The notes under the pieces were generated by a model, which was not told the origin of the DNA, did not search any database, and saw nothing but the letters and a program-made list of their open reading frames with translations. From Tubiluchus corallicola (lineage: Eukaryota > Priapulida > Priapulimorpha > Priapulimorphida > Tubiluchidae): a stretch of DNA of 64,000 nt. The DNA lies in NCBI GenBank assembly GCA_030141605.1, contig JAQGDQ010000095.1, forward strand, positions 434,001-498,000, read 5' to 3'. A program made the translations under genes and the position numbers. The first letter of the stretch is position 1. Every line of letters starts with the position of its first letter. Of the stretch, positions 2,261 through 56,164 are shown piece after piece.

Positions 2261-2915
2261 AAAAATGATAACTATTGTGTTAAAAAAAACTTGATACTTT
2301 ACTACTGAGATGGTGAAGACTGCACAATGGGCAGATTATTCCATTCATTCACTGCTTTTACAGTAAATGAATATTTACAAATGTCAAAAATTAGTTTTTA
2401 AACAGTTTTAAACTATATGTCCTCTAGTTAGTCTTTGAATCAACAACTAAATTAAAGAAATTTTCTGGCAAGATGTTTTCTTTCCTAGAGAGTATTTTAC
2501 AAACGCAAGTAAAATCTCCACAGTGTCTTCTTAATTCAAGTGTGGTCAAATTGCAATATTTTAATCTTTCTAAATAATGTGAGTCAGTAAATTAATTTTG
2601 GAGTAGGATTAGACTAGTAGACAGTTAAAGTTAGGATTCTATGCTTTGAATTCCTGGGATTGCTTATAACAAATAGATGGGAATTTTAACAGCAAATAAA
2701 TAATTACTTACTAGTTAGTTACAAGTTCAGATTGCTACACTTCAATTACCCTTCAGCCTTGAATTCATATCTGTGACAGATTACATCTTCTAAAGAATTC
2801 CATTATTGCTTACGATTACGAAAAACACGCAAATCAGCAAATTTTGCAGCAGACGAAAGACAGCACGTGTGACACTGTGAATAGTTAATGAATGTTGTGG
2901 TCGTTCTCGTAGGCT

Positions 2916-17649: not shown

Positions 17650-20600
17650 CTGTGTGTGTGTTGCACTATAATGAGCTGTATAGTTTATAATTTTACATTA
17701 GAAACATTGAAGTGGCAGACTGAGTCTAAAATTTCTATCATCGGAATTTGTAACAGAAGATCCAAAATGGCCTATTTAATCCTAGAAGTAATCAAGGCAA
17801 CCACATAACAGATGTTACAATAATATGTTCACTACTACAGTCAGTATTCACCTGAATACCGTGAACAATATCATCCATAGAAAAATGCAAAATTAAATTT
17901 TTTTACACACTATTTTGACACTCATTAATGTAAAAGCTTCAGATAGGTTATTTGATAATGAAGAGTGTAATTATCTTTTTAACAGTTTTCATTTTACTGA
18001 AATTTGTGTGAAAAGGTATTTGTAATATTGGGAGTGAAGTAGCGCCTTCGGTACATGGGCTGCCCAAGTGCCGCAGCAACAGAAATGGAGCTACATTAAT
18101 TGCTTTTACAATTTGTTGACCTTAACTGCAATGTCAGTTTTCCTTTATTCATTTAATAACAATATTGAAATAATAATAAATAATTAATTTAATTTTAATT
18201 TTAAATTTAATAAGTTATCATTAATGTGATTGTGATTAAGATGAGTAATGTTTGATCTCCACAGCTAATAGTTTTTAATATTATAATCTTTTTAAGATTA
18301 AAAAGGGCCAGCTCTTTTGACCTAATTATAGACGCTTACCTCTTCGTCAAACACTTTTTCTCTGCAGTGTCAGGCAGTTGAACCATTAGTTTACCTCCTA
18401 ACCAGTGTTTTGTAATTATAATTACATACTGCTGCTTGGCTGTGTAATACGCCTTGACAAGATGATTAACTTTGGCAAACCAATACACTTTTTGCACAAT
18501 TTTTGTTTGATATTATAGTACCAGTAATTAATTCTGCAGACTAATTTTTGCTCACAGGCAGTTTATCTTGTCAGCAAGAATACTATTAGAACGAAATTGG
18601 CCTAGCTACTTTTTGGAGTTTACATTGGTATTATTGTTACATTACATTATTGTCATTATAATGAGTCGGGCAAGACAATTTAGTCAAGTTTTTAGATCAT
18701 CGATTTGTACAGTGAACAGATAAAATAGCGTTAAATGTGACAACTTGTTCAAACGCTACGACACTTTACAAATAAAGCTTGCCTAATATCTTGATTGATT
18801 ATAATTTCATAGATAACGGAACTCAGTGCGGTACTTGGGTGGCCCATTTAGCACACTTGTTTTGGAGAGTGATGTTCGCTACATGGGCTAGTGTGCTACT
18901 TCGCGCTCTACATGTAAGTCGGAGCTTGAAGAAAATATGTGTAAAGAAAAAGGTCCCCAAACTGGATACCACAAATGAGGAAAAAGTTTATTATGGCAGA
19001 AATGTTAAATTAGCAATTGTGTGCGAAAATTTGTGATGCAATAACTTCACTTTGATTATTTTTGCAATTTTAATGGACCAGAAGGCTATACTTTTTGAAA
19101 ATTTCGTGTAAGTCTGTAATTCCTAAAGTCAGTTCATAGTTTGCTTGAAGAACGGAAGTAAGTGGTAAAGCCTTAGAAACAATTAGTAGAGTGATTAAAA
19201 AAATTTTCTAATTCTTTTTTCTTATATTTGACTAAGCTTTTGCTGAAGTTGTTTCAGCATATCCCTATAATTACAGATGACCTAAGCCTTAACTAAATTA
19301 TAAAAAAGATTATACAAATGCCGTTATTTCTTTAAATACACTGTGTAAACAGCAGGCTTTGCTCTTTGGTTTCTTCTAGAAGTTGTGTCAATCTATAGTA
19401 GTAGAAAGCTTAGGAGAGAGCTTTCCTTTTTGTTTTAAAACCAAGGTAGTGTCTGCAGCAATTTATCAGTGGGCTGCTACAGTTATTAAGCAAATGCTTT
19501 TTAATACAATCTACAGGTACAATTATATCTATTTTTTAATCACTGTTTGAAATAATTTGTTTGCATTGTGAATTTCTTTCAGAAGAGGAAAGGAAAATGT
19601 CTTTACTCACACAAGACGAATTTGAACAGAAGAGAAAAGAACAGCTAGCACGAGATGAAAAAGAAGAAAAAGACAGGTTTGTTTATTTATAAAGCATTAG
19701 CGTGCCAGTAACTGTGTAGACTGTATAGTCATCATAAAACTTGTAGTTTGTAGTTAAATCACCGTAACAAAAGTAATAATTAGTGGATCATAAATAGAAC
19801 ATTTCAATGACAAAAGAGAAAAATAAAATTTATTTATAAGTTATAATAATTGTTTTAACCATAATTAATAATTTAGTATCATTGAGGCAACAAATAGTAA
19901 ATGACAAATTGCAGGATAACTAATGGCAGGTTTTGCTAGCAGTAATAATAAGTGGTGGGTTTTCTAAATCTTTAAATTATCCCAATAAATCATATTTATA
20001 AAAAACGTTATAAGATGTTATATTGTCAAAAAAACATTACTACCATTCCAATAGAAAGCTAATGCATTTACGAGACAAAGAAAACCAACAATTAATAGTA
20101 GATTTGTGAGATATATATATACCAAGCATTAGTTCTTATTATAGGCAACATGCACAGCAATTGTGGCTGGAACGGGAAAAGCGTGCACGACTGGAGTTTG
20201 AATATAAAAAGAAAGTTGAAGAGCGAAAACGTCAGGAACGAATTGAGCTTGAAGTTTGTGATACCTTCGTAACATCTTACATTTAATTATTTTAGCTCCT
20301 ACTAACTAGTGGTATTAATACTACAGTGCCTACATGTCTGGTACTTTTTCATGTGTTATTTTTTCTGAATTAATGATTATGTTTTTTTATTTAAAAATCC
20401 AAAAAATACTTTCTTCTGATTTTTTGTATTTATTGATTAACTTTTTGTCCGAAGATAGTTTCACTGTGGTGCATTAAAATGTCGTGTCTTTTCATTTCTT
20501 TATCATTGTATTTTTTTCAATTTTTCTAATTCTTGATATTAGGAATTGTCTCAATGTTGAATTTTTATGTGTTTACAATGTTACAAAATTGAAGTTAGGC

Positions 20601-23600
20601 AAGTGAATTATTGCTGGAGCTTGAAAGCCATGCTTTCAATAAACCAACTCTTTTACCACCAGACTCGCTGTTTAAGTCTTATAATGATCATTATAGTAAG
20701 TGGTTGTGCTTTATTATTGCTATATTTGAAATTTTAGCAAAAAATTAAAAGGGAGTGGGAAGCAGAACAGAAGGCACAGAAAGAACACCAGGAAGAAAAG
20801 GATAAGCAAGAAAAAGAAAGGAAGGAAAAAGAGGTGACAGTTGAATGCCTGCACTCTAAACTATATCCATTTTTCTTTTTTTTGCTGGCTTCAAATCATA
20901 GTTTCCTATTTAGTGTTTTGAAATGTTTTCGGAATTGTAAATGATTACATTGCAGTATAGCACTTCCTTAACCAGAACTACATCAGGATTGTGTTATATA
21001 ATAGAGTGCAGCTTAACAGAGAAGAAACTGTATCTTTTTGGAAGTGAATGGGAAATATTATTTGCAGTGCAACTAAAAAGTACTGCAATTTTGTGCTGAT
21101 GTTTTAAAAACGCATTTGAATCTCCATTAATAATTGGAATCAGATAAAGAATATGTTGTCGGGAATTTTTTTAATTTTTCTTTAGAAATAGATTTGTAAG
21201 CAGAGAATATAACCGAAACAATTATTTACCACATCTTGTTTCAGAGTTTTGATGCTCTACGAACATAACAGTGAAATGATAATCTTTTTAAATGATGTTT
21301 GTGCCATTAGATTTTGGACATTATTCTTAAAACATTAAGTCTAGACTTTTATGATAAAAATTCCTTCCAGTAAAATGTGATGTTAAGTGAATCGAACAAA
21401 ATTTTTTGTGTTTAATTAAGATAAAAAATTCAGCCCTAGCCCGTTAAGCAAAAATTTTTTATTGTTAAGCAAGTAAATGTTCATTATCATTAAAATATGT
21501 AGTCACATTGTACATATATTTGAATCATAATTTAAAAAGTTATAAGTCCATTATTTATGATAATTTTTTATTTTAAATGTGTATTCTTAATCACCTTTTC
21601 AATTTATTAGTCACTTTCTGGTTATCATTTGTTGTTTGTAGTACTTATTGTGAAATCAGTACTTTCAATATGCGATGCTACTCTTGTGTTATAGGCCACG
21701 TTGCTCAGTGAAGCAGTTTCAGGAGAAAACAAGGTAAAATGTTTATTTTGTGCTTATACTTGCTTTTTTATAAGATATAATTATGATTTTGAATGTTGCA
21801 GCTAAATATTACCTTTTACTTTTTTGCACAGAAAAATAAATGTTGTATGTTGTATGAAACTGCATTCTTAATGCGTTTGTAATTTTTCGATATTTCGTGA
21901 TTTATAAAATTCAGAGCAAGCAGGACTTAGTGTTAAAGTAGTGACTGATCACTATATTTTGCTGTGTGGTATGGTCATTTTTTGTTCTGTTTAATATGAA
22001 AAAGAGCAGATCAATTAATTTGCTTATTGTAAAATCTGATGCAAATTTCAGGCATGGCACAATCCAATTGCTCCACCAAATTATGGAAAAGAACAAGAAA
22101 GAGAGACTTGTCAGTTCTACATGAAAACTGGAGCTTGTCGTTTCGGTGATAGGTAATGGTAATGCTATGAACTACTGTAATGTCTCTCTTTAAGATTATT
22201 ACAGTCAAATTTCATTGTATCGCCTACTTTGGAACCAGAAAAATGTTTGCGTTATAACGAGGTGTTACTAACTAAAATTTTCAATTACCACTCTAAAGAT
22301 TAACAAATTAAAAGAAATCATTAAATTAATCATATGTGAATTAATGACTCTGCCTCATTTAAAATTAATCCTCTTTGTTGAGACGTTTTTGTTTACTTAA
22401 TAATTTCTTGTACTCAACTATATAACAGACTATAGGCTACTGCTCCACTAAACGTGTATCTGTAGAAAAAGTTTATATAAGTCATAACTAGAAATTTCTC
22501 CTGGGGTTTCTTTATATGATTCTTACAATACAAACGAATACCTCATTTCTTGTGGCAAAAAAAGAAACATGTGTTTTCTTGTCAATTGCTATTATGTCTG
22601 CGTGGAGCATTGACATTAATATCAGAGCTATTAATCCTTTACTGCTGTGATTGTATGGTGTACACTACATCTTGCAAACAATTAAAACATGATAACGTGC
22701 ATTGTTTTATACCCGACGTGACGTATTCCCAGTGTCTGTGACTCAGCAGAGCATATAACAGCCTGGCAGATGGTGGGTAATGTTCTTATTTACCAGCAGT
22801 GAAATATTTTTTGCATCATATAGATGCTCTAGAAGTCATATCAAACCCGAAAGCAGTCACACTCTTCTTATTCCTGGAATGTTTGCAAACTTTGGATTGG
22901 AGCAAAGCCTTCAAGACGAATCTGGTAGGAAACTGCATATTTATTAAGCAGTTCATGTCATTCTTTGTGTGTACATTAATGAGTATTTGTAAACTATCAC
23001 ACTACTCGGCATTCCCTGTTTTTGGCACAACCAAGCGATTTATAAGTGACAGCCTTTCAGGGTCATTGCTACTGTGCTATTAGGCACTGGTCATTTTATA
23101 GACTTTTTGCATACATTCTTGTTTCAACACCTTTCTAAGCACTTTCTTAAAACACAAAATGCTAATATTTCTTAGGGTATGTATCTACTGTCAAATTTTG
23201 ATGTGAGCATTTGAAGCTGTCTCTACAATTGGCAAAACTGTTTGCTGTTGCGTTATGTATTCTAAAATAAGTATGGTAGCCATGGTAATGTTATAGCCAC
23301 TCAAAGTAATTGGGCAATTTTTGGCATTTGTAATAACTAGCTCTTCAGCATAAGGCTCTAAATGAAATAATAAATAATCATTTTGTCTATTTTCTATTGC
23401 TTGTTTTACTAAATCTGTAATATTTGTCAAGACTTTAAGGCCATAAGAATTTTTTTAAGCTCATGCTATTGTAAAAAAGAACTCATTAGTTGCAAAAATG
23501 GAATCTTAACTTCATATGTTATTCAAATCCGTGTTGTTTTGAAGGAATACAATTATTGGTAAGAGTTGATTTTCACTAAAAATGCCATTATTCAATGGGA

Positions 23601-25539
23601 GAAATTCTAAAATTTGTGCAATAACACATTAGACAGAGTAGAATCTCAATGATTGGTTGGATCAACATTCGGAGACTCAGTATTAGTCATTTGAACAAAA
23701 CTGACATGATAATAGAGGTCACTCTTAGGTTATGTTCATTTTGTGTGACTGGTTAAATTGATCATTATAATTCCTTGTCTTACTTTATGTTATCAAACTG
23801 GCACATATTTTTAGATTCTTGGCTAGAATATGAAGATAGTGAAACATTCAAAGACTTTCAGTTGTTTTATGAAGATGTGGTGCCAGAATTCAAAAGCATA
23901 GGACGTGTTATTCAAGTCAAGGTTTGCTGCAACTATGAGCCACATCTGCGAGGCAATGTTTACGTTCAATATGAAAGGTATTTCCTATTCCATGTACGTT
24001 TAACTACATTAAGACTTCATTCCACTTTGACTGTCATTAATAAAATTTTGTTAGAATAATTCCACCAAGGCATCAGGAAATAGAAATGGGATAAGAATGT
24101 ATTCAGCATAATATGGAGGAAAGAATTGGGAAAACTGGAAGGGAAATTAATGAAAGAGGGCTAAAAGAGAGAAAACGAAGAAATGGGAAAAAGCAAAAAA
24201 TGTAGTCACTCCATGTGATAATAAACACAAAATAATAAAACATTTTTTTGTTAATATGCCATATTTTTGTGTTCAGGGAGTCTGATGCACAGAAGGCATT
24301 TTTAAGTTTTAATGGGCGTTGGTACGGTGGAAGACAACTTTCTTGTGAATTTTCTCCGGTGACTAAATGGAAATCGGCCATATGTGGTAAGTAAACAGGA
24401 AGTAATTTTTAAGAAGTACTTGTTTTTTGAAAATCAAATTACTTATTTGTCAGGTTCAATGAAACATCTAGGAATAATGTTGCAAATATTTAGCAAGTTG
24501 CAAGTTAGTAGTTTTCTTTCAACAATAATAGCCTGATTTTCATGGATTCGTCATTCGTGGTTCTAACTACAGATATATTTCACCATTTGCTTAGTTCCCG
24601 CTTCAGGCTTTTGTTGTAAAACCTGAAACCCGCAAATGAGAAAGCAATAGTGACATATACAGAACTTACCAAGTAATTACCATTTGTTTTCTGGTACCAT
24701 TTTACCAAAATGTCTCAACAGATATAAACAAAATGTTTCTAAAAATATAAAAATCATAGCCTTGCACAAACAAGGCTGTACAGTTCTTGTGAATTTAAAA
24801 TGTTTAGATATTGCTTTATTTTCTAGGTTTATTCTTTAAAAAGCGATGCCCAAAAGGACGAAGTTGCAATTTTCTACATGTATTCATCAATCCTCGAAAA
24901 GAATTCTGGTATTATGGAGGTAGAGAAAACAAGCACGATATTCCTGAATTCAACGAATGGTACAGTGAACGCCACACGTCTCGGTCCACTAGGGAATACC
25001 ACCCATCTGCAAAACGGCGGCGGACTCATTCCCGATCAAGAAAGTACTCACATTCTAGATGCAGGTCTCACTCAAAGAAACGCTCATGCTCACGAGATGG
25101 GTCTAAACACCAATCACGTTCAAGAGACAGGTCTCATTCTAGGTCAAAAAACCGTGCAAGATCACATTCCAGATCACCGTCATGGTCAAGTTCCACATAC
25201 AGCTCGAGAAGTAGATCTCGATCAAGATCAAGAAAAAGATCAGGCTCGAGGGCTAAGTACCAACTAAGGGGAGAATCTCCTCTACATAAAAATCATTTAA
25301 TGAATAATTCTGCAAATAGGTCAAATAGCAAAAGCGAACTATTGAGTTCATTGCCAAAGTCACAGTCAAGATCTCAGTCACCATTCACTCAAGAGGATAA
25401 TACAAAGGTAACTAAAAAGCAAAATCATACGAAAAGGCATAAACGTAGATCTAGTTATAAGCGATCAAAGTCAAGAACAAAGAAATCGAAAAAAACACAT
25501 TCGTGTTCAAGAAACAGATCACGGTCGAACTCACATTGA
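17030..25539 (+). CDS. ZRSR2: ZRSR2/URP, U2AF35-related splicing factor
   Basis: This nuclear factor recognises 3' splice sites, above all in U12-type introns, through a U2AF-homology motif flanked by two CCCH zinc fingers. Eleven exons join in frame to 557 codons plus stop: 17030-17085, 17454-17545, 19583-19676, 20145-20253, 20738-20833, 21695-21733, 22052-22152, 22824-22924, 23815-23977, 24277-24386 and 24827-25539. All boundaries are GT-AG. The first exon (MANQISLLGELCNSS...) was chosen because its phase-2 end and Kozak context complete the SHKEYKSLLKK segment, as in ZRSR2. A charged coiled-coil region covers about residues 20-160. Finger 1 is at 182-201 (C-x8-C-x5-C-x3-H), the UHM at about 205-318 with NGRWYGGRQL, and finger 2 at 320-338 (C-x7-C-x5-C-x3-H). 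A long RS-rich tail follows and accounts for the greater length than the 482-residue human protein as I recall it. Confidence 0.95.
17609..17660. repeat. (TA)n(TG)n microsatellite in ZRSR2 intron 2
   Basis: A short TA run passes into an alternating TG run with one C interruption, just downstream of exon 2. Confidence 0.9.
18052..18850. mobile_element. Possible non-autonomous element with inverted ends in ZRSR2 intron 2
   Basis: TACATGGGCTGCCCAAGTGC (start of the 23-nt left arm, 18052-18074) is matched in inverted orientation by GCGGTACTTGGGTGGCCC (start of the right arm, 18828-18850), 19 of 23 positions. The enclosed 0.75 kb is AT-rich and non-coding. Additional copies of CTACATGGGCTAG lie at about 18890. 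No target duplication is clear, so the boundaries are provisional. Confidence 0.4.
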
Positions 25540-25848: not shown

Positions 25849-27068
25849 GCTTATTTTTGCAACTTGTTTAGTACATTATAATTGCTTCAGGCACAGTGGT
25901 TAAGAAAGCAACATTTGAAGATATCCACCTAAATTTCTATTGTGATTGATTTAAAAATCTGGCTAATACAAACAAAAAGTTATTGATTTTTTTAAACTAA
26001 ATCGATTTTATTAACTATAGTACATTAATATTTTATTATATTTATAATAGCAAATCAATAAAAAATTTAAGTACAAAACCCAATGTAATCAAATGTACAG
26101 TTGAATAGAAACCGTAAAAGTGATGCACTAACTTTAATATAGTGGAACATTTCTAAAATATATATATAAAAGCAAATGAATATGGTTGGCCACATTTTGC
26201 ACTTTAAAATGCAAATCCTTATTAGCACAACTAAATTTCTCAAAAATTATTTTTAAAAGTGGTAAAATATTTAGTTGTAGTTATAAATACTCAAAACCAA
26301 ACAGTAAATTAATTAACCATCAAGCTTTTGCTCAAATAACTTTCGCAAATGATGATCGTAATTCTGCTTCTGTTCAATTGGAAATGCTGGTGTACTTAAA
26401 ATCAGTACCAAGATATCAATCAAAACTGGTTTACACATGACATTCGTTGAGGTAATAATTACAAATACCCCCTACCAACAATCACACTTTATATCACAGC
26501 TAATTCTTCAACATTAACACAATGATATGATGTGTTAATTCTAAATCATGATAACTTCTTTGGTGAGTAATATTGCACAAGTATGACTGACCAAGCATTT
26601 TAATGGTTGTCCTAAAGACTTGGCTGAATTTCATTCTAACACAAAGAGCATTGTGAGCATGTGTAGCATGTACATAGTAAGATACTCGATATTTCAGACG
26701 GAAAGTAATACTCGAAACATATTAATGGAATTTGATAAAAGGTATTGTACCCAGGTAAATCCCATTTTTTGAAACTTACAGCTTAACAGAAAATTTGATA
26801 TGAATTTTCAAGTCAAGTATATTTGGACATCTTTTAAACACAAATAAAGCAGAGACATTAGACTTTATAATGCATAGACTTTATAGCCTCTATAAATGCC
26901 CACATTACTGGACTGTTTATTTTGGAAATTTGGAGATATTGAGGGTGACAATAGTATTCTACTCAACTATTTTCTTTATTACATTCTGATTAATGGGTTT
27001 TAATAACAAATAACTAATACAATAACTATACAAGGGGAAGATTGGATGCTACTGTATTCTATTTTTGT
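25849..27068. other. Convergent intergenic region between ZRSR2 and AP1S
   Basis: AT-rich sequence separating the 3' ends of the plus-strand ZRSR2 and the minus-strand AP1S terminal exons. An AATAAA on the minus strand (26975-26980) lies about 90 bp past the stop of the distal AP1S exon. Otherwise I see nothing. Confidence 0.5.
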
Positions 27069-27164
27069 TCAGTAAGCTTCGAATTCTCTCGGATCTAAGC
27101 CATCAGCATTGGAATCTTGAAAGAATAAGTTCAAGCCGAGCGATATCTCTTGACGAACATCGGC
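27069..27164 (-). CDS. Candidate AP-1 sigma alternative terminal exon D (31-residue tail)
   Basis: On the minus strand CGTTTCCCCACTGCAG is an acceptor. It is followed by 31 codons in phase 0 and a TGA, with a poly(A) signal 90 bp later. The peptide begins ADVRQEISLGLNLFF and ends DGLDPREFEAY. The phase fits the shared AP1S exons, whose last codons are LLQE. Its layout (S-L-G-L-N ... D-P-R-x-F-E-x-Y-stop) resembles the exon at 27720-27812, suggesting exon duplication. No other upstream coding exon was found on this strand nearby, so AP1S is the likeliest parent. It could instead be the end of a separate, undetected gene. Confidence 0.5.
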   Translation of the reverse strand, partial: ADVRQEISLGLNLFFQDSNADGLDPREFEAY

Positions 27165-27719
27165 CTGCAGTGGGGAAACGTATAATTAGAAGGATGAATA
27201 AAATGTAGCACCTTTATTGTGTTAATTAATAAATCACAATGAGTTCAATGAGTATGACTGAAGGACAGGCTATGGAGCTGAGTTAAAAAACCTGATATTT
27301 AACCAAAAGAAAAAACTGGTACTTTTTTGTAACCAGAAAAAACCTAAATAATGTTCATTTCTCCCAATTTCCCCATACAAAGTCAACTCGTATACATTTT
27401 ACTACTAACGTTAAATTTTGTGATCTTCACTGAAAATTTGGTACATTTTAGCCAACTTGTTACTGGTAATATGCTAACATGTTCTATTTGTAACTTTCTT
27501 CAACTGTTTATTCCCATAAAAATAATAATTATACTCATTGATCTATACATGTAGAACATATGCGGAGCACATGTTACAAGACATGCTAAGTACTCAACTA
27601 AGACAACGATGTGTTTTTCTGAAATTAATGTCTAGTAATGATTAACTAATTGTTATTAAAAGTTGCACAATCATGCGTTGCCTAAGAAACTACATGCATA
27701 TCCGCATTTTATGGAGCAT

Positions 27720-27812
27720 CTAGTAGGGTTCGTGGTAGCGGGGATCTATAGCAAACTCTTCTGCAAAATCCAGTCCTATACTCTGCAGTGCCACAAGTGT
27801 GTCGGAACCTTC
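27720..27812 (-). CDS. Candidate AP-1 sigma alternative terminal exon C (30-residue tail)
   Basis: A pyrimidine-rich acceptor on the minus strand (ending CAATGTCTAG) precedes 30 codons in phase 0 and a TAG. The peptide starts EGSDTLVALQSIGLDF and ends FAIDPRYHEPY. A minus-strand AATAAA lies at 27507-27512. The acidic start and the terminal D-P-R-...-Y pattern match exon D at 27069. Joined to the three shared AP1S exons it would give a 173-residue sigma subunit, 16 longer than usual. The parent gene is inferred from strand, phase and position only. Confidence 0.5.
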   Translation of the reverse strand, partial: EGSDTLVALQSIGLDFAEEFAIDPRYHEPY

Positions 27813-30278
27813 CTAGACATTGGTGAAGGAAAGATAGAATGTTATGGAAGCAATTTTAAAGTAGAAATGTATTGTGTAAATGGCAGAATGGTATATGACA
27901 TATATATTTGTATACACACAAAACATTCGAAGTGCCATATTTTTAAACAAAAGGCACTACAAACTGAACTAGAATTTGTTTCATCAAATATATAAAAAAA
28001 TTGTGAGTAGTAATAAAAATAACAGTGTAAGATTAACCACAAGAAGAAAAATTTAGATGTAGTAATGCTTTTATTGTTCAATTTGACAAACATACGTTTA
28101 TAACAATAAGATAGATAGAAGCGAAGTCAGGATTTTTTTCTTAGTTTTTATCTGGCTTGTCCTGTTATTGGCCATATAAATGATATTACTGGTTAATTCT
28201 TTTTGTCTCTTAATACATGTAATTATTATCAGAAAGTCAAGGCAGCATCATTCCATCTCAACGTGACAATATAAAATGTAAGAAAATCCTAAATCTAAAA
28301 AAGTTTTTACTATTTCATTTAAATAAAATACTCATCCTTCCAGATTTCATTCAGTACCAATTTAAAGTACCCGTTTGAACAGTTGTTGCAAAGCAATCAG
28401 ACTTGGCTGTTGGCATGTTTCTTGATGGGCATGCATTTTATATGAGGGTAAACGACACACTTTGCTAGGGTTTCTGATTATAAAAACTGGCAAATAAAAC
28501 AAGTTATTTTGAAACTTTGGACAACTGAAGTGTAAAGAAAACTTATTTTTTTGTACCGTGTTGAAAATCATATTCACAAAACTTTTCAAAAAATTACCAA
28601 ATTTTATTTATGAAACTATACGAAGCAAGACCATTAATAACAAAAATTTGCAACATGTGTGCAACAATTCTGTAGGTGGATTTAAAATAAACACAAAAGG
28701 AAATTTTTCTTAACATGATGAATATCATTGTGTGCTCATGTAATGCTGTCACTAAGCAATCTATTTTTTTTAAATATAACTTATATTTAGAAATGTTTTT
28801 TCTAAAGCTTATACTAATTTGCTTTGTCTTTTAAAAATTATTGGTAATCAGCCAAGAGAATTATTGATTGGTTGATAAGAATGAAAAGTGTTGACAATAG
28901 TAGCTACTCATGTAACTATACACATGGTTCAAGTAACAATGGTAAATAATGGAGTAAAGTGAGTAAGCAGTTGAAAAATAGTGCAAGTTATCTGCAATTG
29001 TATGTTATTTGCAACTGTGTCTAATTATAAATTATGTCTACTAACCTCTACTTAATTCATTGTGTACTAACCTCTACTTAACTCACTTCTCATGAACAAG
29101 AACTAAGAGTAAAGCTTATAAAAAGCTTGATATTATTTATGTGAACGCTTCCTTACCTCTTTGGAGTTGCTCCATATATTGAAGTATAGCAATACAAACA
29201 TGAATGCAATAAATACGAGATCTAGAACAGATCCGTAACACTAACTAAATAAACGTATGCACAACATACACACAGATAAGCACACCCACGCACACGCATG
29301 CACACACGCAAACACAAGTCCACACATGTAGGCTTTAAGTGTGAAATTCCAAAATTAAGACGTCAAAAAATGCATTGGATTAGCAACATCCTACTTGGTC
29401 ACTCACCTTCCTGGTGACTAACAGTCACAACAATGTACAGTATTGCAAAATCTAAGTTACAACAATCGGTCACTCACGATTATAAGCTATAGCAATAGAA
29501 ACACTAACAATAAATATTATTTGCAGAAGACTTTTACCGATCACAATAGTAAATAAATATAATAAATAGATTTGAAGAAATATTTCAAATTTTTTTACAA
29601 GAAATGTGCGTTAAAGTTTATTTTATTTTTACCTACATTTCTGTTTTCAATGATTAACTTAAAAATGTTCTAATCTGGGTCAAACTATAATTTGATTACT
29701 GTTTTCATGACATTAAAAAGATATTGTCTCATGAAATTTTGTCTAGCCAGGTCCAGGTACGAAAGAAAATGGCATAGTTTGTTATTTTCCAAAAATTGCT
29801 TGGAAGACATGGATATACATGACAGCCAAAGGTTGCCATTTACAATATTAGGCCTACTTAGTACAATAAACTTTTAGAAAGTGTTTGACTGCTGCTACGA
29901 GTCACAGAACAGCAAAGATGAAAGCTGAAGCATACAAGATAACTAACACCACATAATAAGCAAGTAATATTATACTAATGAGACAAGAGAAAAGAATTTA
30001 CAATATGAACAAAGAAAGCAAAGTAACTGACTAGTACTGGAATGCAGGTCTTAATTATCCTACTCAAATGAGTTACATGAATTCGAAAATATACAACACA
30101 GTAGGATGTGAAATTTCATTACGACCAGCAACATATAGCAAGCGCACAAAAGCAGATATAAAGCATTTATAATAGTGATATACTCAATTATACATAAAAT
30201 GACAATACTATAGACCTCTATACTTAAACAAGGAAATGTTTTAGCCATTAAGATGTGGCATGGCAGCCTAAAGTATGA
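27813..30278. other. Distal AP1S intron/3' region, nothing else recognised
   Basis: AT-rich sequence between the candidate exon C and exon B. It should contain the 3'UTR of the exon-B isoform (minus-strand AATAAA at 29617-29622). A CA-rich stretch lies at about 29261-29328. Two strong-looking donor sequences on the minus strand (near 29155 and 29407) have no convincing exon attached. Confidence 0.4.
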
Positions 30279-30323
30279 TCAGCCTAAGCCATGATCTTCA
30301 AAGAATCCTTGTGGAGTTTCTTC
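30279..30323 (-). CDS. AP1S: AP-1 sigma alternative terminal exon B (EETPQGFFEDHGLG)
   Basis: The minus-strand acceptor TTTCTTTGTATAG is followed by 14 codons, EETPQGFFEDHGLG, and TGA, in phase 0. As I recall the family, this is essentially the C-terminal tail of insect and nematode AP-1 sigma (...TPQGxFEDHGLG), and it is related in layout to the vertebrate ending (...PRSVLEEMGLA). Following the shared exons (ending [11 protein letters not shown]) it yields a 157-residue protein. It lies about 1.9 kb downstream of exon A, so the two tails must be mutually exclusive. Confidence 0.85.
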   Translation of the reverse strand, partial: EETPQGFFEDHGLG

Positions 30324-32246
30324 CTATACAAAGAAACACATGGTTTAATAGATGCATAAAATGACTTGCTCAATCTATTTCTACAGACTAACAAAAACGA
30401 GAAGATGAATCACAAACCCATCGCAAAAGAAAACTACCAATACTAACAGCAGAAAGAAGACTGCACTCATGCAAGCAAACAGAGCTACTTGTAAACAAAC
30501 ATTAAGTGACTCATTGCAATTAAAAATGTGACGTGTCCTTGGTGACTGTCAATGCACTGCTAAGGTCACTGCCGAAAAAGGAAAGATCCAATACAACAAT
30601 ACGAAAACACTCAACAACATTTGTGATCTCAACAGTATATGTACGCTCAACTTTGCTTTAGTTTAAATGTGCCTGTCAACAAACAGCTTTTATAAATAGT
30701 AAATTACCATCTAAAAATATATTTATCAGTTTGAAATTTTTAAAAAGCTAAAAGTTTCAACATGCCTAGGAAGATGCAAACAAAGTACAAAACAAGATAT
30801 ATAATTATTATGAGATTTCTCAAAATATTGTATTTGAATTGATACAGCTTCACAGAATAAATGTTTGTGGTACAGTACAACCCAATGCAGATTTTGAATT
30901 CAATTGTCTGTTAATAGTATAGAATCATGTCAGGATAGTTAAAGAAAACCTAAAAAGTGAAACAGTGAGTACATATGTTCAATTTAAATTTATGCAGCAT
31001 TGCATAACAACACCATTTATTAAAAATCTGAAATCTGTGACCTAATTTAAAGAATTTATCTGAATGACATGAAAAAATAAAATTTTGCCAGCAGAAAGTT
31101 TCAGTAAATTTTGAATATAGTACACTAACAATTACGATTTGCACAAGGCATTTTTCAAATTTTTCTGTTCAATGGATTACTAAATGATTAGATTTCAGTA
31201 AATATATTAAAACAAATAACACAAAAACCACTTTTGATAATAACAAACCATGAAAATTCAAATTATGAGTACCATCATGTTTAAAGCTACTTGAAAACAA
31301 ACAAAATATCTACATAATTACAAAGTCTTGTCTTTCATAAGCACCTTATAAAATGTCGCGAAATTTAATAAGTGTCACACATGCATTTTTACTAGACAGT
31401 GTTCACTTTCAGCAATTACAAGAAAAACGTATTTAGTATTCTCTAAGTTAGTAACTTATGACATTTTCACAAAATAAGAAACTAACAACAATAAGTCAAA
31501 GTGAAACGACAATGCACAATTACTAGGGCAAAAACAGCAATTCAATCCATGCTTACTTATCTAAATTTAACTTAAGTTTAACAAGATCTCTAGAATGAGA
31601 ACCAGGCGGTAAAAACAATAAGAAAGTAAAACAAAAGGTGTATGAAAGAGACTGCAGTCACGTCTTTGTATAAAGGAACGAGCAGCAAGTCTGTAAATTT
31701 TTCAGCTAGGACAGAAAAAGCTATAAAAAGTTTTAAAATAATTGACTGGACTTTCCACATATTTTTCGTTTAATTATACTTGCATTAAAATTACTACAAC
31801 AATGACTATATATGACAAATATAGATCTAAGAGCATTTTAAAGACAACTTGTGGTCGACTTGTATTGTAGTGTATACAGTTAATCTTTTGAGTTCCAAAA
31901 CTTCCTCTAAAGTTAGAGCTTGATCGAAAAAGAAACTTTATAAAATGTCAAAGCATGACTATCATGTGTATTAGTTAGAATTTTGAAGATGCAAGTTGAT
32001 CAAATAGATAAGTGGCAAGTACAAACATTTCAATTGATTCTCTTGAAAAATAAAAAAAGCCTCTACTTTCAAAAATATTACAAATGAGAACTCATTTGAA
32101 CATGATGAATTATGTACATACTGCAGACAACTTAACAGCATGCTAATGAGATAAGAGCAGGATGCCTTAAATATGCAATTACAAAAATAAAAATGAGATG
32201 GGAAAATAGTTTTGTGCACAATGATATCCTCTTTGTGCAGCCAATG

Positions 32247-35200
32247 TTATGTAAGTCCATACTCTTTCAGTGCATTTTCAATTGCCTCATCCTGAAGCAG
32301 AAACAAAGTGTCTCAACTGGTAGAAATCATTTTTAGTAATCAAGTACTTACAACTATGACAAATTGAGCATTGATTCAGTATTAAAATAAAATGAAGTCA
32401 CTTAGATTTGCAGATATCTTAATAGTGAAGTGCATTTACACTTACATTTATCAACATACAAGCAATTCTAGTGTGAAAGCATGCTGTCAAGTTTAGTTGG
32501 AAACACACAGACACAATCAAACAACAAATTATAATTACAATGCATCAGATATGAAGTCAAAATAAAAATGTTAGGCAGTATGTAATTAATACATATTATT
32601 AAGCTACCAAATACCAATATTTTTTGTCAATAACTAAATAGTAAAGCTACCCAAGTTATTGTAGAGCTAGTTAAAAAGCATGGGTAGACAAAAAATCTTG
32701 CAGAAAGCAGCCATGTTTGTATGTTATACTTTTGCAAATTAATAAAGCATTAAACTGGTTACTGTGTTATGTTCTGCAATACAAGAGCAACACTAAAATA
32801 AAGCGTTAATAAATCTACAGCTCAAAAGAAGCTGCGGCTGTGAAAAGTGAGTGAAATCTTGATGGCTGCTAGACCACGAAGGAAATAAGTGCATAGTCTT
32901 AGTATATAAATAGTTAATGAGGTTAAGTTAGTCCAGAAACATGCACTGTGACTAACGCTGTTTCCGCTTTGGCCAACAGAATTCTGAATACCTGGACTTA
33001 AAATTTTGGCTGCAAGATGGAAGGTACAGCACCAAATATTGTATCATGTTCTTCACCCGATTCCTATATTTCAAAAAATATTCTATGTACCATGTTTGCA
33101 CAACAGAAAGAATAAAAAACAGTTAAGCAAACACAATTGCAACTTCATAGTAAGCCAAGCATGCTTACTGCTTATAATTTCACTTTTTGCAGAATTACGC
33201 TTTACGCTAACTTAAGTAAGTTACTGCCAAAACATAACTGGCAACTTCTTAGCAATTAGTAAAGAACTATTATAAAAATACTATTCAAATGGATGAATTT
33301 GTAAACCACTATATTTGTATAAAAGAGCTCATACAAAAGTCATATAATTGTATACAAAGGTAATAGCATATTCATTTCATAAACTACACAACCCATATGT
33401 TGATAAAAGCAAGGCTCATCAGAATTCTCTTTTATCCACAACACTTATAAATAAACAAGAAAATTCAACTGTATCTAAAATAATAAACATTGTATATGTT
33501 TGACATTGCATCTAGTCTACAATACTAAGTCTAATAAATATCTGTCAAGTATAATTTACTTGATATAGTGACTTGTATAAGAAATTCAAACTGTAATTTG
33601 TAGTTCTACATTGTTAACAACTCTACACTGCCAATCATTCAAACCACTCAGCTTTTCATTATTTATGTCTGTTGCTTGTCAAACTATTAGTGACTTGTTA
33701 TAGTTTTGACCATTTAATACTCCCATGCATCTGAGTATGCTTTAGTAAAGGAGTTTGCATGTATGGGTCTCACAGTGTCAATATTTTAACAGTTTAACTA
33801 ACAAATTTTCTTATGAAGCAGATCCATCAAATTAAACAAAGTCAGATGCACTGGTCATACATTTTCTGATAACCCAACAGATGGGTACACAAGCATTGAA
33901 TTGAATTGCCAATTTGCCATGTCACATTTCTTTGAAAGCTCATGTCCAAGTGTGACTGTAGATCCAGGTATCCAGTGCTCTCTGAATTCGTATTTAGTGC
34001 ATTACATACTAGTGAATAACTAGTAAGCATTATAATCTACACATACATACATCAGTGTAATTCTTTAAAGGAAAAGCCAAAACCAAAGCTCTAGGGAAGT
34101 TGAGCTTATTTTAATATTGGAGAAAAACGCTAGAAGGTTTTAGCAATAAAATTGTGACAACCATCTCTTGTAATTAGCAAAATCAATTTAAAGTCACGAT
34201 TGTTCGTTTCATACATGGGCGTGCTCATTTTAAATAAAAAATTACATCATCCGGTTACCATGCAATACAAACACCTATCTCACCAGGCATGAGCAAACTT
34301 TTTACAGCTGCAGTTACCATTATCAACTTATAAACAATCCAAAACGGTAAACGAGGGATTATTAATACTCTCTTTTTTTTGCTTTTTGATTAATCTCGTT
34401 TCCCACTATGCCATGAAAAACAGTTGCCGATGACAGAATAATAATTTTAAAAAGCTAGAAATGAACTCCATAAGCTAAAACTCTGCCCGGCACTTACTAT
34501 ATGCTTGCAGAATTGTGCACTTATCGGAGAACCAACTTGAGGTATAATCCTAAGGATTATAGCTATGTAAACAATTTAAAGTAGTTGCTAATTGACCTGG
34601 TGCATAATTTTTTACATAAACACAGTTAAACACAAAGCTTTAAACAGCTAGAATAGGCTTCATTAGTGGAACTTCTGAGTAGACTGCAGAAGTTTTGCTG
34701 TCCACCAGTTCTTTCAAATATGTCTGCAGCGAAGTTCATTTGGCTGGAGATACGAATGATTTAAATTTCTTTTGCATTTTGAAGTAACATGTTTTATACG
34801 GACATATTGCATGGTAATTTCAATATTTTTCACTGTATATCAAAATTCAATAAATGTTGCTCGAGATGGCAGGATTTTCCTTTACTCATAATTATTGACA
34901 TATTTTATTACATATCAGCTGTCTTGTGTTTTTACAGTACTTATTGCCTAATGGTGCAAAATATGTACAAAATGTTAACAATAATAGATATTAGTACAGC
35001 AAATTCACATTTTAAACCCCACAAACTTTCCACGAGAAGACAAAAAATAGAACACAAAATCTCAATAAACTTCAAATAGTTAAAGTGGGAAAAATCTTAA
35101 ATCATAACGGCAGACAAATTCATTATTCCGGAACTCTGTAAGCTACTATGCTTAATTATTAAGAATAAAGATTTAGATACAACATCCAAGTATTAGGCAG

Positions 35201-38200
35201 TGACTTTAGTAATTGATAGACAACATTGTGGAGTAAGATGCCAGAATCATTGTCAATGGACGTCAAACGTACAGTGGTTTTGTGAAAAACTGTGCAATAC
35301 AGCAACAGAAAAGAAATGACAGTGATGATGAACATAACAAGGAAAACCAACTGAAAATCCATGTGCAAAGAAGCCAGGAAAAAACTACACATAAAGAATG
35401 CTAGAGTGAGTCACATCAAAGTGTGAAGCCACAAACGTAAAAGATGTGAAAAGCTATTCCACTACTGTTATAAGATTCGAGAACTACCTGAAAGTTCTAA
35501 AGTACCTTGTCAAAACACAACCCATGCTAATGTCCTTTTATGTTGGTTTTTTCAGTTCATTTTTGTTCCGGTTATTTTTTGTAATAATATTCTAATAATA
35601 ATGAGTCTAGCTAATTACTAATATCAGTCTAGTAGGAACTTAAGATTACTAAACTGATGTCTGAAATACAAGGTTTCTAGTATATGCATATGCATCATCA
35701 AAAGTTTCTGTCATCCTGTGATTTGTATGAATTTCATGTTCATGTTCAAATATACTCTCTATCTACCACTTAATTCAAAATTTGGCAACTATTTTCAGAT
35801 CATTAAAAAAGTAAAGAAAGAAGCACAGGCAGCAAAGGCTATTCGAGCAGCGATATATCTTTACTCTAATATCTGGCAAATGTGAAACTGTAATGCTAAA
35901 AATGTAAGAGTATTACAAAATTATTAAGAGTTACTAATTAGTAAGAACTGTAAACATCACTATCACAAGAAGCTAAATTGTCAATAAGGGTGCCAATGGA
36001 AAAACAAAAACGTAAATTTCACATAGACCATCACATCCATTCACTACATGCCAGGCAAGCATTCACTCCTATGCAAAATTTAAATCAGATAATCCCAAGC
36101 AAGAGTGCATATAATCAATATAAAGGTAAGATCAACATATTTATGAGTTGTATACCTAATCGTCTAATTAACGTGCAATTAAGTTAGAATCAATGAATAA
36201 CTAACAAATTTAGGATACTATTTAAGTAGTAAGAAGCATAAAAATTATGCACAAGTAAATTCTTAGCATAGCCCGAACTTAGTATACATGCACCAACCTA
36301 TTTCATCTGCTTGTCACCACAAGTTTAATTCAAATAAATGCACTATAGCATGTATTTGCCTATTATAGATGAATTATCAGTACCAAATATAGAAACATTA
36401 AGAATTGTAAATGTTTTTGCATTAAGGATAATCTGTTACCATTTTCTACAAGATTCAGAATCACTGCACAATGTATTTGTGACCTTTGCCTTCAAATACG
36501 TCAGATATTTGTAGTGCAACATTACTAGTTTTCAAAAGAATTTATATCTTTCTCACATGCTGCTCACATTAAAATTCTAGTGTGCCCAAAGAAATAGGAA
36601 CCATTCAAAGTGTCATGGCGTGGCACCCCCAAAACAACCTCAAATCCATTGCATGTTCCTAAGCTGGTAACGTTTTTTATGAATATTGAGATTTAAGCAT
36701 GTACCAAGTACCCACCTCTTGTAAAAGATCTTGTGCAGCTATTGCCTTGAGCACGTTCTTTTTGCTTGTTTCTTGCATCTCTCCAGCCAACAATAGCTCG
36801 TCAAGCATAAAGTAAGCTTTTTCAAAATTAAAAATAATATCCAGCTCGCACACCTACATTTGAAATTGGAATATGGTAACATGAAAGAATTAATAAACTG
36901 AAAAGGAAACAATTTGAAAAATTATTTTTGAGATTAACAAAATGACTGCAAGGACAAATGAAATTCAACATGAAGCTTCTGATGTTTATGTTGTTCACTA
37001 ATTCATTAATAATAAAAAAACTGGAAACACTTTACATAAATTACATATAGCTAAAAATTAACTGTATTCAAACTTGGTCAGAAACAACCTATTAAAAACG
37101 TCTCTTTTTCGTATGACAAAACAGTCCATTATCGACAATATAAGAGTAGACATCTTACTCATATAGAAATATACGTACACAAATGGTACAAAATAAAGCA
37201 GTGAACAAATACAATATGCATATTATGTACACTACATGAACAATAATAAATAAGTAGTTTATACTCACGCTTCCGAAGTACTTGTCTAACAGTTCAACAT
37301 AACGATGAATGATCTCTAATGTGACAAGTTCATTGTCAGAGTCTTCAATTGCACAACAAAAATATAAGCTAGCATACCTACAACAATAAGTCGTAAATTG
37401 TATTACACCACCAGAAACTTTTGCCATTTTTAAAACAGATTGTTGTAGGCATAAATGTCGCAGCGCAGACTTCTAAACTATACACAGCATTAGAAAATTT
37501 ATAATTCTGGCTAGTATACCACGTAATTAAATTTTGCTATGCAATTTTTACTGAAACACAATAAAAAATTAACTATGAAATTAGACAAAAATACAAAAGT
37601 TATTAAAGGGATACAAAACTGTAACGCAACATAAGTTCAGAACATTTGCTGTGTCATATAAAAGCAATTTCATCAAAAATTTTCAAACGATGTGCTTCAG
37701 GAACTCCTAAAGACAAATTTTTACATTCAGAAATTTCAGCTTTTACCCTTTGATCGGCTTTCGTAAGTGCTAAAGTGCTACGCCGTTATTAGCACACGTG
37801 CATAGGCTATGATGTCTTTTCATGCTTTCATATTTGGCCAGCTATACACAGAGAAGTGAGACAGTACTTATAGGGAATATAAGGAATAAGGGCATAGAGA
37901 GTCAAGACAAGAGCTAGGGTGTAAAAACGTCACGCACGACGACCTCTGACGTGTCTTATGCTACCCTTCAATGAGACTGCCACAACCTGTGTGACGAGTT
38001 GCCAGATCCCTTCAAAAAAGAATTGGGGTGTCTTAAGGACTTCGACCTGGAAGTGAAGTTCAAATCTGACGTGAAGCCGGTTTTTCACAAGGCATGACTG
38101 GTTCCCTTCGCTCTTCGTGATGACCTGGCCAAAGGTTACGAAGAAGGCATCGCCAAAGGTGTCTGGAAGCCAGTCCAGTACAACGAATACGGACAATCTT

Positions 38201-38491
38201 TATTAAATAATGAACAGTTTCTTATTAGGTTTGCCAAGTAAACCATCACTGCCACGCAGAAAATGCTTTTATAAATGACTCCAAATAAAAGAACGTATAA
38301 CTTTCTCACCTTTTATAAACAATTTTTAGATCTCTCCATTCTAAAAAGCTACACATTTTTGGCTTTCGTGAAAGTATCAACGTTGTCAATTCTCGGACAA
38401 TTTTCTTCTTATCTTTGTCTTGCTTTGCAACGTACCACTTCTGTAGGCGCAACTTGCCTTGGCGGCTAAATAGGAGCATGAACTGCATCAT
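32247..38491 (-). CDS. AP1S: AP-1 complex subunit sigma, isoform with terminal exon A
   Basis: This is the small sigma subunit of the AP-1 clathrin adaptor, which sorts cargo with acidic dileucine signals at the trans-Golgi and endosomes. Four minus-strand exons join in frame: 38491-38310, 37377-37269, 36853-36716 and 32291-32247. The product has 157 residues, the normal size. Nearly every segment is diagnostic: [72 protein letters not shown] and [19 protein letters not shown]. The start may be either of two adjacent ATGs (38491 or 38488), and MM-x-F fits the family. An acceptor-like TTATTTCACAG just upstream (near 38510) implies a non-coding first exon. The last exon encodes [14 protein letters not shown]; three other candidate ends lie further downstream. 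The 4.4-kb last intron (36715-32292) shows no other coding signal. Confidence 0.95.
37981..38196 (+). mobile_element. Ty3/gypsy pol fragment in AP1S intron
   Basis: In the plus direction the frame reads [20 protein letters not shown], then KPVFHKA, a stop, [20 protein letters not shown] and [12 protein letters not shown]. This is the protease/reverse-transcriptase junction typical of Ty3/gypsy elements. It is only about 215 bp, with one in-frame stop. The piece lies inside the first coding intron of AP1S, opposite in orientation. Confidence 0.8.
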
Positions 38492-46452: not shown

Positions 46453-49400
46453 ATGACTATCATAACCAAGGTTTCGCCAGAAAAGAAACTTATAAAGGAT
46501 GATAGCGATTTTATGGAAGTTGAACTTCCTGCAGAAAAGGTGATAACAATAAACCTAGATAAGATAATGCTTTGAATATATTTTAAATGACAGACATTTT
46601 TTATCTCCTAATTAACACCAGAATTACAAGGTAAACAATAAACAAGATGAACACCCTGAAGTGTGATGGAAACAATCACTACTTCAGAAAAACTTGAGGA
46701 AGTTGAGAACCTTCTAGAATAACAGTATTTTTCTTTTTTGGAGGGTAATTGCTTCCAAATTGCAAGTATGTTTGAGAGGAGAACAAAATTCAATTACAAC
46801 ACAAGTATGTATGAGTTTGATATAAACGCTGAAAGAATGCAAAGCTTATTGAAGTCACAATGGAAAAAAATTAAAAAGGCAGTTAAAAAGTATCTAGAAG
46901 TAGAAGCTTTGAAAAAGTGTGGTGATATGAAAAAACTGAGATTTATGAAAAATAGTGTGGAAAATTGGGAACAGGCAATAAATTATGTGATGGAGTGTGA
47001 TAAAAAACTGTATATGAAATTACTGAATGGGGATAAAACATGATCAAATTAAAGTGTAATTATAAGAATTAGTGTAAGGATGGTTTAATGTGTGTGAAGA
47101 GTGTGATACAACTGAACATCTGTTGAAATGTGAAGTAGCTGAAAAAGTATTTGGAAATCACGTGGTGAACGAAGAAGATCTATGTTCAGTAATAATGGGC
47201 ACACTAGTAAGAGTCAATGCATGGATCAGACAAGTGATAAAATTTAGAGAAATTATGGGGCTCAATGTAGAGGTGTAAGAACAACAGCGTGACAGGATAC
47301 AGTTTTCTTTTTTGCTTGCTCGTTTATGATGTGGATATACAGGAGCCGGATAGAAATATTAGAATAGCCGCTGTGAGTCTCCTGAATCACCTTCCTCAGT
47401 TTTACGGATGTGTTAAAGGAATTTGGAGTTGTGTTACACTACACTTTGATCTTGGCCAAAGGGTTTGTGTTACAATGTAAAATGTGATCATGTCAGCTAG
47501 TTAATAGGAAAATTACGTTTCATGTATTACTATATGACATAGACATTTTATTTATCTCTTCATTTACATCAGAATACAGTTATAGACTATTATTGCTATA
47601 GTTGTTAATTAAGCAGGATAAATTATGCATAAAGGAAAGAGTTAGGGAGTGCGGGAGAAAGGGTAGCGAAAGACCAATTGGTCGTCAAGTCAGCTGCCCT
47701 TCTCAGCTTAGTGTAAATTGTAAAAAAATCGAAAGATATGTATATAAGCATCTGCTACAGTCGTAGGTATGAAACTACGATATTATGATACGACCTTGCT
47801 AATCTTATGACATGCAAAATACTAGGATGTTTTGAATGTGTAATTTTTGCAGCAAGATAAAGCAGATTTTTGGAATCTGTAGCAATTTACTAGTGTTTAA
47901 ATAATTTAACTTTTTCTTGACACATCGCAAATAGCGAATTGTTATAAAGGGCATAACTACAAACTGACACCGTAGCTAATGGAACCCCCCAAGCTACCCT
48001 TAGTGCCCCGATTGCTTTCTTATCCTTACATGATATTACTAATTATTTTTCAGCTAGTAGAACAATCCCTTTATTTTTGGATGATCTTAAGTCCTATTGC
48101 CAAATCTGGGGTGACTTAGAAGCCAATTTATTTTACAAACTGACCTCAGTGAAATTAAAAAATGATGCAACGAATGGTCATTGCAACTGAAGAGAAGCAA
48201 ATGTTGCTCATTGCACGTGCAGAGTGAATTTCACACACCCATATTTATCAGTAATTTGAGTCAAAGGAGAGAAATCTATTATACGTGATTTGGGCCTCTA
48301 TATATCTAGTGACATAAGTTGGAACGCCCATGTGAATTGGGCTGACAATAAAAATACTTCTATTTCTGTCTGATTGCCTGGGTAATATTTTTTTTATCGC
48401 ACACCTGGCCGGGAGTTTTATAATTTTTTTGCACATTCATATACATTCATAGACACAGTCATATAAAAGTGTATTTTTGTCATTTAAAATGTAAAACGCA
48501 ATCATTATTACAACATCGTTCTTTAGGGGACACAGGATGCAGCCATATTTTTCCACGGCTAACTCTCGACCAGTGTTGCTGTTTTGTATGATGCTTATTG
48601 TATTGGAGGCGAAAAAGTATCGAATTTTCTGCCTGATTAGTGTATTAACAGCCAAGCAGTATTGCTGCTTATACCATAATTATCTGAACATACGTTCTGA
48701 ATCTGAATGTAGATACTGCAGCTTTCTTTTAAGAATGTTATTGCAGCTCGCATGCGTGGTATAAATAACACTATGTAATGTACATTTATACCATTTCTGT
48801 CGTATAATGTATTGCTGTTCTAACCTTCACTCAGTCCGAGATATGCACAACATGCAGAGATATATTATTCCACTGGATGACTGAAAGTGTTCCAAATGAA
48901 TACCTAAAACAATCATTGTTGCACTGGTAGTGTTGAAGCTTGTACTGAAGTGAATTTTGGCCTTCCAGGTAGCTCTGGTAAATAAAATTTATATAAATAT
49001 TAATATCTACACTAGCAAAGCCCCGCAAAAGATTTTGCGTAAAAAACCACTTATAATCAATAACACGCGAACATCCTACACAGTCCTCATGTATAACGCA
49101 AAGCCCGTAACATCCTGCCTACTTACCTAATGCAAAACCTGTACTCTTGCCTACTGTATGTTTAACTAACGCAAAGCAGCTTTTTGCTGAATTAAAGCTA
49201 TAAGCAATAATGGATGACGTCAGCACAATGGAATTCGTCACAACAGTTTTCTAAGAGAAAATCGCCGAAAATAGAACAGCTAATTAACTCGTCGGTACTC
49301 CTCTCGGTGGACCTGCCCTAAAATATAACCCACATCATCGTGTAGCCCTGTCCTTCCTCTTTGTAAAGAGCTATAAATCTCCTCCCGAGAGTCCCACCGG

Positions 49401-55400: not shown

Positions 55401-56164
55401 TTCGAACGTTTGTGTTGCCAGGTATTCTTCAGGTTATTCTTTAACTGGAACATCATTCCCATTACCGCCATTTGGTATCTGATACAGAACTCAAGTAACA
55501 CTAGTCTATTAGAGTTCATGTTTCCAACGCTATGTTTCCCGATCACTGAGGGCCAAGACGCCCATTCTTTACCAACACGAGCATTCAGGTCACAAAGAAC
55601 TATAATATTATCACCTTTTGCATTATCTAAGCAATCTAATTATCTAAAACCTAGAATAGCATATTTTCATTATTCTGTAGACTGTAGCTGGGAGCCTGGG
55701 GCTCACCAAAATTGTTGCCAGTAATTCTCGCCTTAACGGTCCCGTACATCACTCCTATTGTTTACCTTGAAAGAGTTTTCACAAAATGGATGCTATATTT
55801 TAAACTTAATAAGTTTTCAAGGTATTGTAATTTTTACTGCTCGCATGCAAGAAGCATTTTTCATTGATGACAGAATTAGCAAATTGACCTACTGAATATT
55901 ACAAACCATGTATTGCTTGTGACCAATACAAAATTTATTGCACACGTGTATGTACTCTTGATAACGAGAATTATGCTGCGGTTGCACCATGCACTGTTGT
56001 TCAGAACATTACCTCCTCTTTTTTCACCATATTATACATTACAACTTAAAAGGAAATCACATTTTAATTTTTAACACACACGCCCACGCATGCACGCACA
56101 CACACACATATACGTTAAACGTTAAATTTATGTTTAATTATGTGCTTTAATAAAATTAGTATAA

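Follow-up and report, generated by a model that had tools for sequence, protein, structure and literature searches.

A probable array of four alternative terminal exons at the single AP-1 sigma gene found in the priapulid Tubiluchus corallicola

The sigma-1 subunit of mammalian AP-1 comes in three isoforms encoded by separate genes, and its core, together with gamma, binds [DE]XXXL[LI] signals (PMC4114066; this and the other sources cited here are used in excerpt). Vertebrate AP1S2 is itself alternatively spliced, being named as a target of NOVA2-regulated splicing with the affected exon not specified (PMC9543825) and appearing in an isoform-switching table for cancer (PMC8650491), so that splicing and paralogues are not mutually exclusive solutions. 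Studies of vertebrate AP-1 variants have relied on the paralogues AP1S1, AP1S2 and AP1S3 (sigma-1A, 1B and 1C), in which differences of core and tail are mixed. The choice of a terminal exon alters both the C-terminus of a protein and the 3′ untranslated region (3′-UTR) of its mRNA. Here we describe a 64-kb stretch of the genome of Tubiluchus corallicola (contig C2137, positions 434001-498000; hereafter the window, which contains zero N) in which an AP-1 sigma gene on the minus strand, AP1S, is followed by four units, T1 to T4, that probably serve as its alternative terminal exons through splicing.

The shared part of the gene consists of three coding exons, given here in window coordinates.

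Coding exon 1 of AP1S, 38310-38491, minus strand; donor GTGAGA; the transcript start may lie further upstream
Coding exon 2 of AP1S, 37269-37377, minus strand; peptide ending in YFGS; donor GTGAGT
Coding exon 3 of AP1S, 36716-36853, minus strand; peptide ending in AAQDLLQE, phase 0; donor GTGGGT, presumably shared by the tails

Joined, these exons give a stop-free frame of 429 nt for a core of 143 residues. An earlier reading of the window, made from the sequence only, had placed a phase-0 end after the three shared exons and assigned the gene to AP-1 sigma, and both statements were borne out. Residues 1-140 of the core matched positions 1-140 of the 142 in the Pfam family PF01217 (clathrin adaptor small chain) with an E value of 1.3e-58, and the best match in the PDB was sigma-1A (269 bits), followed by sigma-3 (231), AP-2 (146), AP-4 (114) and AP-3 (99). 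By these comparisons the minus-strand gene is an AP-1 sigma, nearer to AP-1 than to AP-2, AP-3 or AP-4 sigma. When the whole assembly (343.5 Mb in 2344 contigs) was searched, nine matches were obtained, three of which were the AP1S exons themselves (85-94% identity). Two more lay on C2137 at 222.4 and 225.7 kb (the latter with 52% identity, E 9.3e-18) and belonged to AP-2 sigma by best PDB match, and the remaining four were weak (E 0.006 or worse). A single AP-1 sigma gene was thus found in the assembly, whose gaps could conceal more. As a separate observation, the AP-2 sigma gene (C2137:222430-225912, plus strand) is about 245 kb from AP-1 sigma on the same contig, and the linkage of the two is possibly old.

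Downstream of exon 3, the sequence-only reading had listed four units that begin at an acceptor, continue in phase 0 and end at a stop, and all four were confirmed in the sequence.

Terminal exon T1, coding part, 32247-32291, minus strand; AG acceptor, phase 0, stop; 14 residues, short class
Terminal exon T2, coding part, 30279-30323, minus strand; AG acceptor, phase 0, stop; EETPQGFFEDHGLG, 14 residues, short class
Terminal exon T3, coding part, 27720-27812, minus strand; AG acceptor, phase 0, stop; EGSDTLVALQSIGLDFAEEFAIDPRYHEPY, 30 residues, long class
Terminal exon T4, coding part, 27069-27164, minus strand; AG acceptor, phase 0, stop; ADVRQEISLGLNLFFQDSNADGLDPREFEAY, 31 residues, long class

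One donor followed by four phase-compatible acceptors, each with its own stop, is the layout of alternative terminal exons. Phase 0 was the top-scoring of the three frames in every unit, with a narrow margin in T2 (5.8 versus 4.7). The donor motifs GTRAG and GTRNGT were found neither within T1-T4 nor in the 47 to 60 nt examined past each stop, which fits terminal exons. Candidate poly(A) signals were also located.

Candidate poly(A) signal for T1, 31769-31774, minus strand; ATTAAA, 472 nt past the stop; AATAAA at 31021
Candidate poly(A) signal for T2, 29622-29627, minus strand; AATAAA, 651 nt past the stop
Candidate poly(A) signal for T3, 27507-27512, minus strand; AATAAA, 207 nt past the stop
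Candidate poly(A) signal for T4, 26975-26980, minus strand; AATAAA, 88 nt past the stop; ATTAAA at 64 nt

AATAAA or ATTAAA occurs between the stop of every tail and the next unit, yet at chance density (1.4 and 1.1 per kb), and for this reason we gave these motifs little weight. A possible fifth tail was noticed between T4 and the neighbouring ZRSR2-like gene: a coding-like phase-0 unit at 26318-26369 on the minus strand, reading KQNYDHHLRKLFEQKLDG up to a stop. A further, weak candidate tail begins at 33063. The acceptors of these two units (at 26369 and 33063) scored 1.2 and 1.3, under the threshold of 2 used below; since the acceptor of exon 3 itself scores 1.0, both are kept as possible tails.

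The comparison with proteins of known structure divides the four tails. We calibrated each comparison with 2000 shuffles and with control open reading frames of like length from the window. Aligned with the sigma-1A tail (EDESPRSVLEEMGLA), T1 and T2 scored 29 and 30, and in neither case did any of the 2000 shuffles or 1340 controls do as well. T3 and T4 are not sigma-1A-like by the same measure, equally good scores being reached by 389 and 1166 of 2000 shuffles, respectively. T3 and T4 resemble each other mainly through their C-termini, IDPRYHEPY and LDPREFEAY, a likeness matched by 33 of 2000 shuffles and by none of 792 controls; this pair is one of ten compared, and after a ten-fold correction the shuffle result fails and the control result survives. 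The resemblance is suggestive of a relationship between T3 and T4, and the array may combine two sigma-1A-like short tails with a second, long type that is also present twice. Searching the genome with T3 or T4 returned one match each, the tail itself. By eye, T4 could be taken for an EF-hand loop lacking one residue. Pfam gave no match at E 1, the sole PDB hit (E 0.025) was to a designed repeat protein, with no significant stretch, and the idea was dropped. Scans of collections of bacteria, archaea and viruses with the T2 isoform picked up 18 and 2 pattern stretches, none of which was confirmed by tblastn, and Rfam at gathering thresholds found nothing in the window. A COX1 search of the assembly gave no match at E 1e-10.

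The point at which the tails part is shared with vertebrates. Among PDB chains, sigma-1A (EDESPRSVLEEMGL) and sigma-3 (VSTV...) diverge directly after LQE, so that the paralogues vary where splicing would vary at this locus; the stretch that the array would vary also differs between vertebrate sigma paralogues with different partners. AP1S thus resembles AP1S1, AP1S2 and AP1S3 in having the same core and tails that diverge at the same point, after LQE, and the sigma-1A tail resembles T1 and T2. It differs in that mammals have three genes and one was found here, and in that the PDB searches turned up no chain whose tail resembles T3 or T4. T2 may be the widespread invertebrate AP-1 sigma tail, as the sequence-only reading had it, the animal proteins compared here being PDB chains. 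Drosophila presumably makes AP-1sigma in several isoforms, the main one with a T1-like tail; a literature search aimed at such insect isoforms returned no paper. The NOVA2-regulated AP1S2 offers a second comparison: alternative terminal exons that change the C-terminus are a known mechanism, and what differs here is the presence of four of them, in two classes, at one small-adaptin gene. Neither alternative terminal exons of AP-1 sigma nor long tails are named in the titles and abstract openings among the matches listed by our literature searches; most subscription journals lie outside these searches, and unpublished status is therefore not implied. The mechanism is already known, and a four-way tail choice with two tail classes at this gene was not met in those titles and abstract openings. 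The sequence-only reading had gone further, proposing that interchangeable tails stand in place of the AP1S1-3 paralogues. The single gene found agrees with this in part; the wording was too strong, AP1S2 being alternatively spliced as well (PMC9543825, PMC8650491).

An AG followed by a short phase-0 open reading frame is common (the region scored, which runs 11.1 kb downstream from exon 3, holds 578 AGs), and phase plus stop therefore proves little. We scored acceptors and coding potential separately. The codon model was trained on 3980 codons, taken from the open reading frame of DMC1 and from 14 kinase loci (out of 15 retrieved), with no AP1S sequence included. Among the 578 AGs, the acceptor of T1 ranked 2, that of T4 ranked 4, that of T2 ranked 17 and that of T3 ranked 41; the score of the last, 2.5, is comparable to those of AP1S exons 2 and 3 (2.7 and 1.0). 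A joint filter on candidates of 8 to 60 residues (acceptor score of at least 2 and codon score of at least 5, thresholds fixed after the scores were seen) passed four of 301 candidates in the region, namely T1-T4, with T3 and T4 holding the two highest codon scores; 13 more passed elsewhere on both strands of the window. By summed acceptor and codon score, T3 stood 1st, T4 4th, T1 20th and T2 39th among 3846 candidates on both window strands. T1 and T2 were outscored, in the region itself, by a simple repeat (25837) and by an open reading frame nested in T3 (27782). In 300 runs on Markov sequences, there was never more than one candidate that reached the summed score of T2. The summed scores support T3 and T4 and, taken alone, give T1 and T2 no support; the latter were therefore judged on their homology to the sigma-1A tail.

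The distal exons could also belong to another gene. A search blind to splice sites was run for maximal coding segments scoring at least 9 from 38800 to 25600. Its minus-strand output comprised AP1S exons 1 and 3, T3 and T4, together with part of intron 1 (37.9-38.2 kb) and a repeat near 25.8 kb. The segment of T3 opened exactly at its acceptor base, 27812; for T4 the opening lay upstream of the acceptor by three codons. Between AP1S exon 3 and the 25.8-kb repeat, the search found no further minus-strand segment scoring at least 9 that might own the tails. T1, T2 and AP1S exon 2 (codon score about 0) were missed by this search, so that a second gene whose exons are short or unusual could have been overlooked. 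The coding-like segment near 25.8 kb was set aside as a CT-rich simple repeat just past the stop of the ZRSR2-like gene. The intron 1 stretch (37993-38193) is coding-like on both strands, and its plus reading resembles, by eye, a fragment of a long terminal repeat (LTR) retrotransposon reverse transcriptase.

In the arrangement that we propose, the donor at 36716 (after codon 143) would join one of the acceptors at 32291, 30323, 27812 or 27164, and each acceptor would set its own C-terminus, stop and 3′-UTR, and presumably its own poly(A) site. The predicted products, of 157, 157, 173 and 174 residues, would have a constant core, with all differences confined to the tail that follows. The dileucine-signal site, formed by the constant core and gamma, would be common to all four, tail choice would set the choice of AP-1 accessory proteins, and the long tails would provide a C-terminal peptide of AP-1 for which no counterpart was found among chains of known structure. 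The splicing of the four tails, a cell-type-regulated choice among them and a tail effect on the accessory partners of AP-1 are what we infer from this layout. A constant core with a swapped tail would isolate the role of the tail and make partner choice by sigma isoforms directly testable, and the locus would exemplify one role filled both by splice isoforms and by gene duplicates.

Several points weigh against this arrangement. The junctions from 36716 to the tails are predictions from genomic sequence, and the poly(A) motifs, besides their chance density, are present upstream of T1 too. The acceptor weights are general base preferences, untrained, and G+C served as the sole screen for the source of the training loci. 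In the rest of the window, 33 candidates reach or exceed the summed score of T2 (only eight of them overlap the ZRSR2-like span, DMC1 or reverse-transcriptase-like open reading frames, and seven cluster at 49.4-49.7 kb). The acceptor of T3 ranks just 41st, T3 and T4 have no Pfam match at E 1 and no credible PDB match, and their mutual likeness passes only one of its two corrected comparisons. The plus strand opposite T4 (27074-27181) scores 10.5 against 11.8 for T4, and the codon signal therefore leaves the strand of T4 unsettled. The scans of bacterial, archaeal and viral collections gave no relative with an array for comparison. With respect to function, the differences in binding are not shown to be caused by the C-terminal helix, and Vps34, the partner first proposed for this helix, failed to bind (PMC4944158). 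A link between tail choice and partner choice at this locus is therefore a proposal.

These points bear differently on three other explanations. If T1 and T2 alone were used, T3 and T4 would be chance open frames between the AP1S and ZRSR2-like genes, as the missing homologues, the modest T3 acceptor and the nearly equal strand opposite T4 might suggest. We consider this quite unlikely, since chance frames would have to account for ranks 1 and 4 among 3846 summed scores, for codon scores above those of the other two units passing the joint filter in the region, for a T3 segment that opens at the acceptor base with phase 0 best in both tails, and for C-termini that are alike. Nor does it seem that a separate gene on the minus strand between AP1S and ZRSR2 has T3 and T4 as its last exon or exons. 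Such a gene would explain the 2.5-kb gap between T2 and T3 and spare the skipping of two upstream terminal exons that distal use requires, and its short exons could have escaped a segment search that missed T1, T2 and AP1S exon 2. Against it, the stretch from exon 3 to the repeat near 25.8 kb holds no further minus-strand segment of at least 9, and T3 and T4 are best in phase 0, matching the AP1S donor, which makes this explanation very improbable.

Some tails may instead be pseudo-exons or relics of exon duplication, spliced at a low level into transcripts that are mostly degraded and add little protein diversity. This view overlaps with the one we favour, and it is a general observation that alternative terminal exons are often minor; nevertheless, four intact frames with in-frame stops, acceptors that all outscore that of exon 3, short tails that retain a sigma-1A-like pattern and long tails that are coding-biased make it an unlikely account. 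For the claim that one locus makes sigma subunits with interchangeable tails, the single gene, the four units and the failure to find another owner in the span searched hold, and the splice junctions are predicted. The array of four units is real and well formed, and it is most likely functional.

The gene that meets AP1S tail to tail is itself of interest.

ZRSR2/U2AF35-like splicing factor gene, 19583-25539, plus strand; nine coding segments joined (the first exon was not sought)

Its predicted product has a charged helical stretch, a CCCH finger, an RRM, a second CCCH-like stretch (below the Pfam cut-off) and an RS-rich tail, and the gene, convergent with AP1S, ends 1.5 kb from the stop of T4. 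PDB comparison groups it with U2AF23/U2AF35 proteins; its domain layout suggests ZRSR2 rather than U2AF1. Human ZRSR2 and AP1S2 are presumably convergent as well. A listing of the sheep X chromosome gives CA5B, ZRSR2, AP1S2 and GRPR (PMC9126029), so that vertebrate AP1S2 has ZRSR2 as a neighbour in sheep and AP1S has a ZRSR2-like neighbour here. If this reading of the neighbour and of its orientation is right, the locus possibly retains a very old gene neighbourhood and corresponds to vertebrate AP1S2. A more speculative scenario, which we regard as doubtful, is that the ancestral animal AP-1 sigma was a single locus beside ZRSR2 whose terminal exons, short and long in one array, acted as a splice-selected partner code. 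Vertebrates would later have distributed the short-type tails among three paralogues and dropped the long class, which in this animal would serve AP-1 as a docking peptide with (I/L)DPRxxExY at its end and without vertebrate counterpart.

Other features of the window were recorded in passing. At 49369-49708, seven acceptor-led coding-like candidates lie on both strands within about 350 bases. DMC1 is complete in one open frame at 2913-3956 on the plus strand (347 residues; PDB DMC1, E 2e-182). This one-frame copy is the sole full-identity match in the genome search, and the gene therefore appears to be intronless; the next match, with 52% identity on C2311, is likewise one open frame. Finally, open frames at 53658-55639 on the minus strand resemble, by eye, the endonuclease and reverse transcriptase of a non-LTR retrotransposon.

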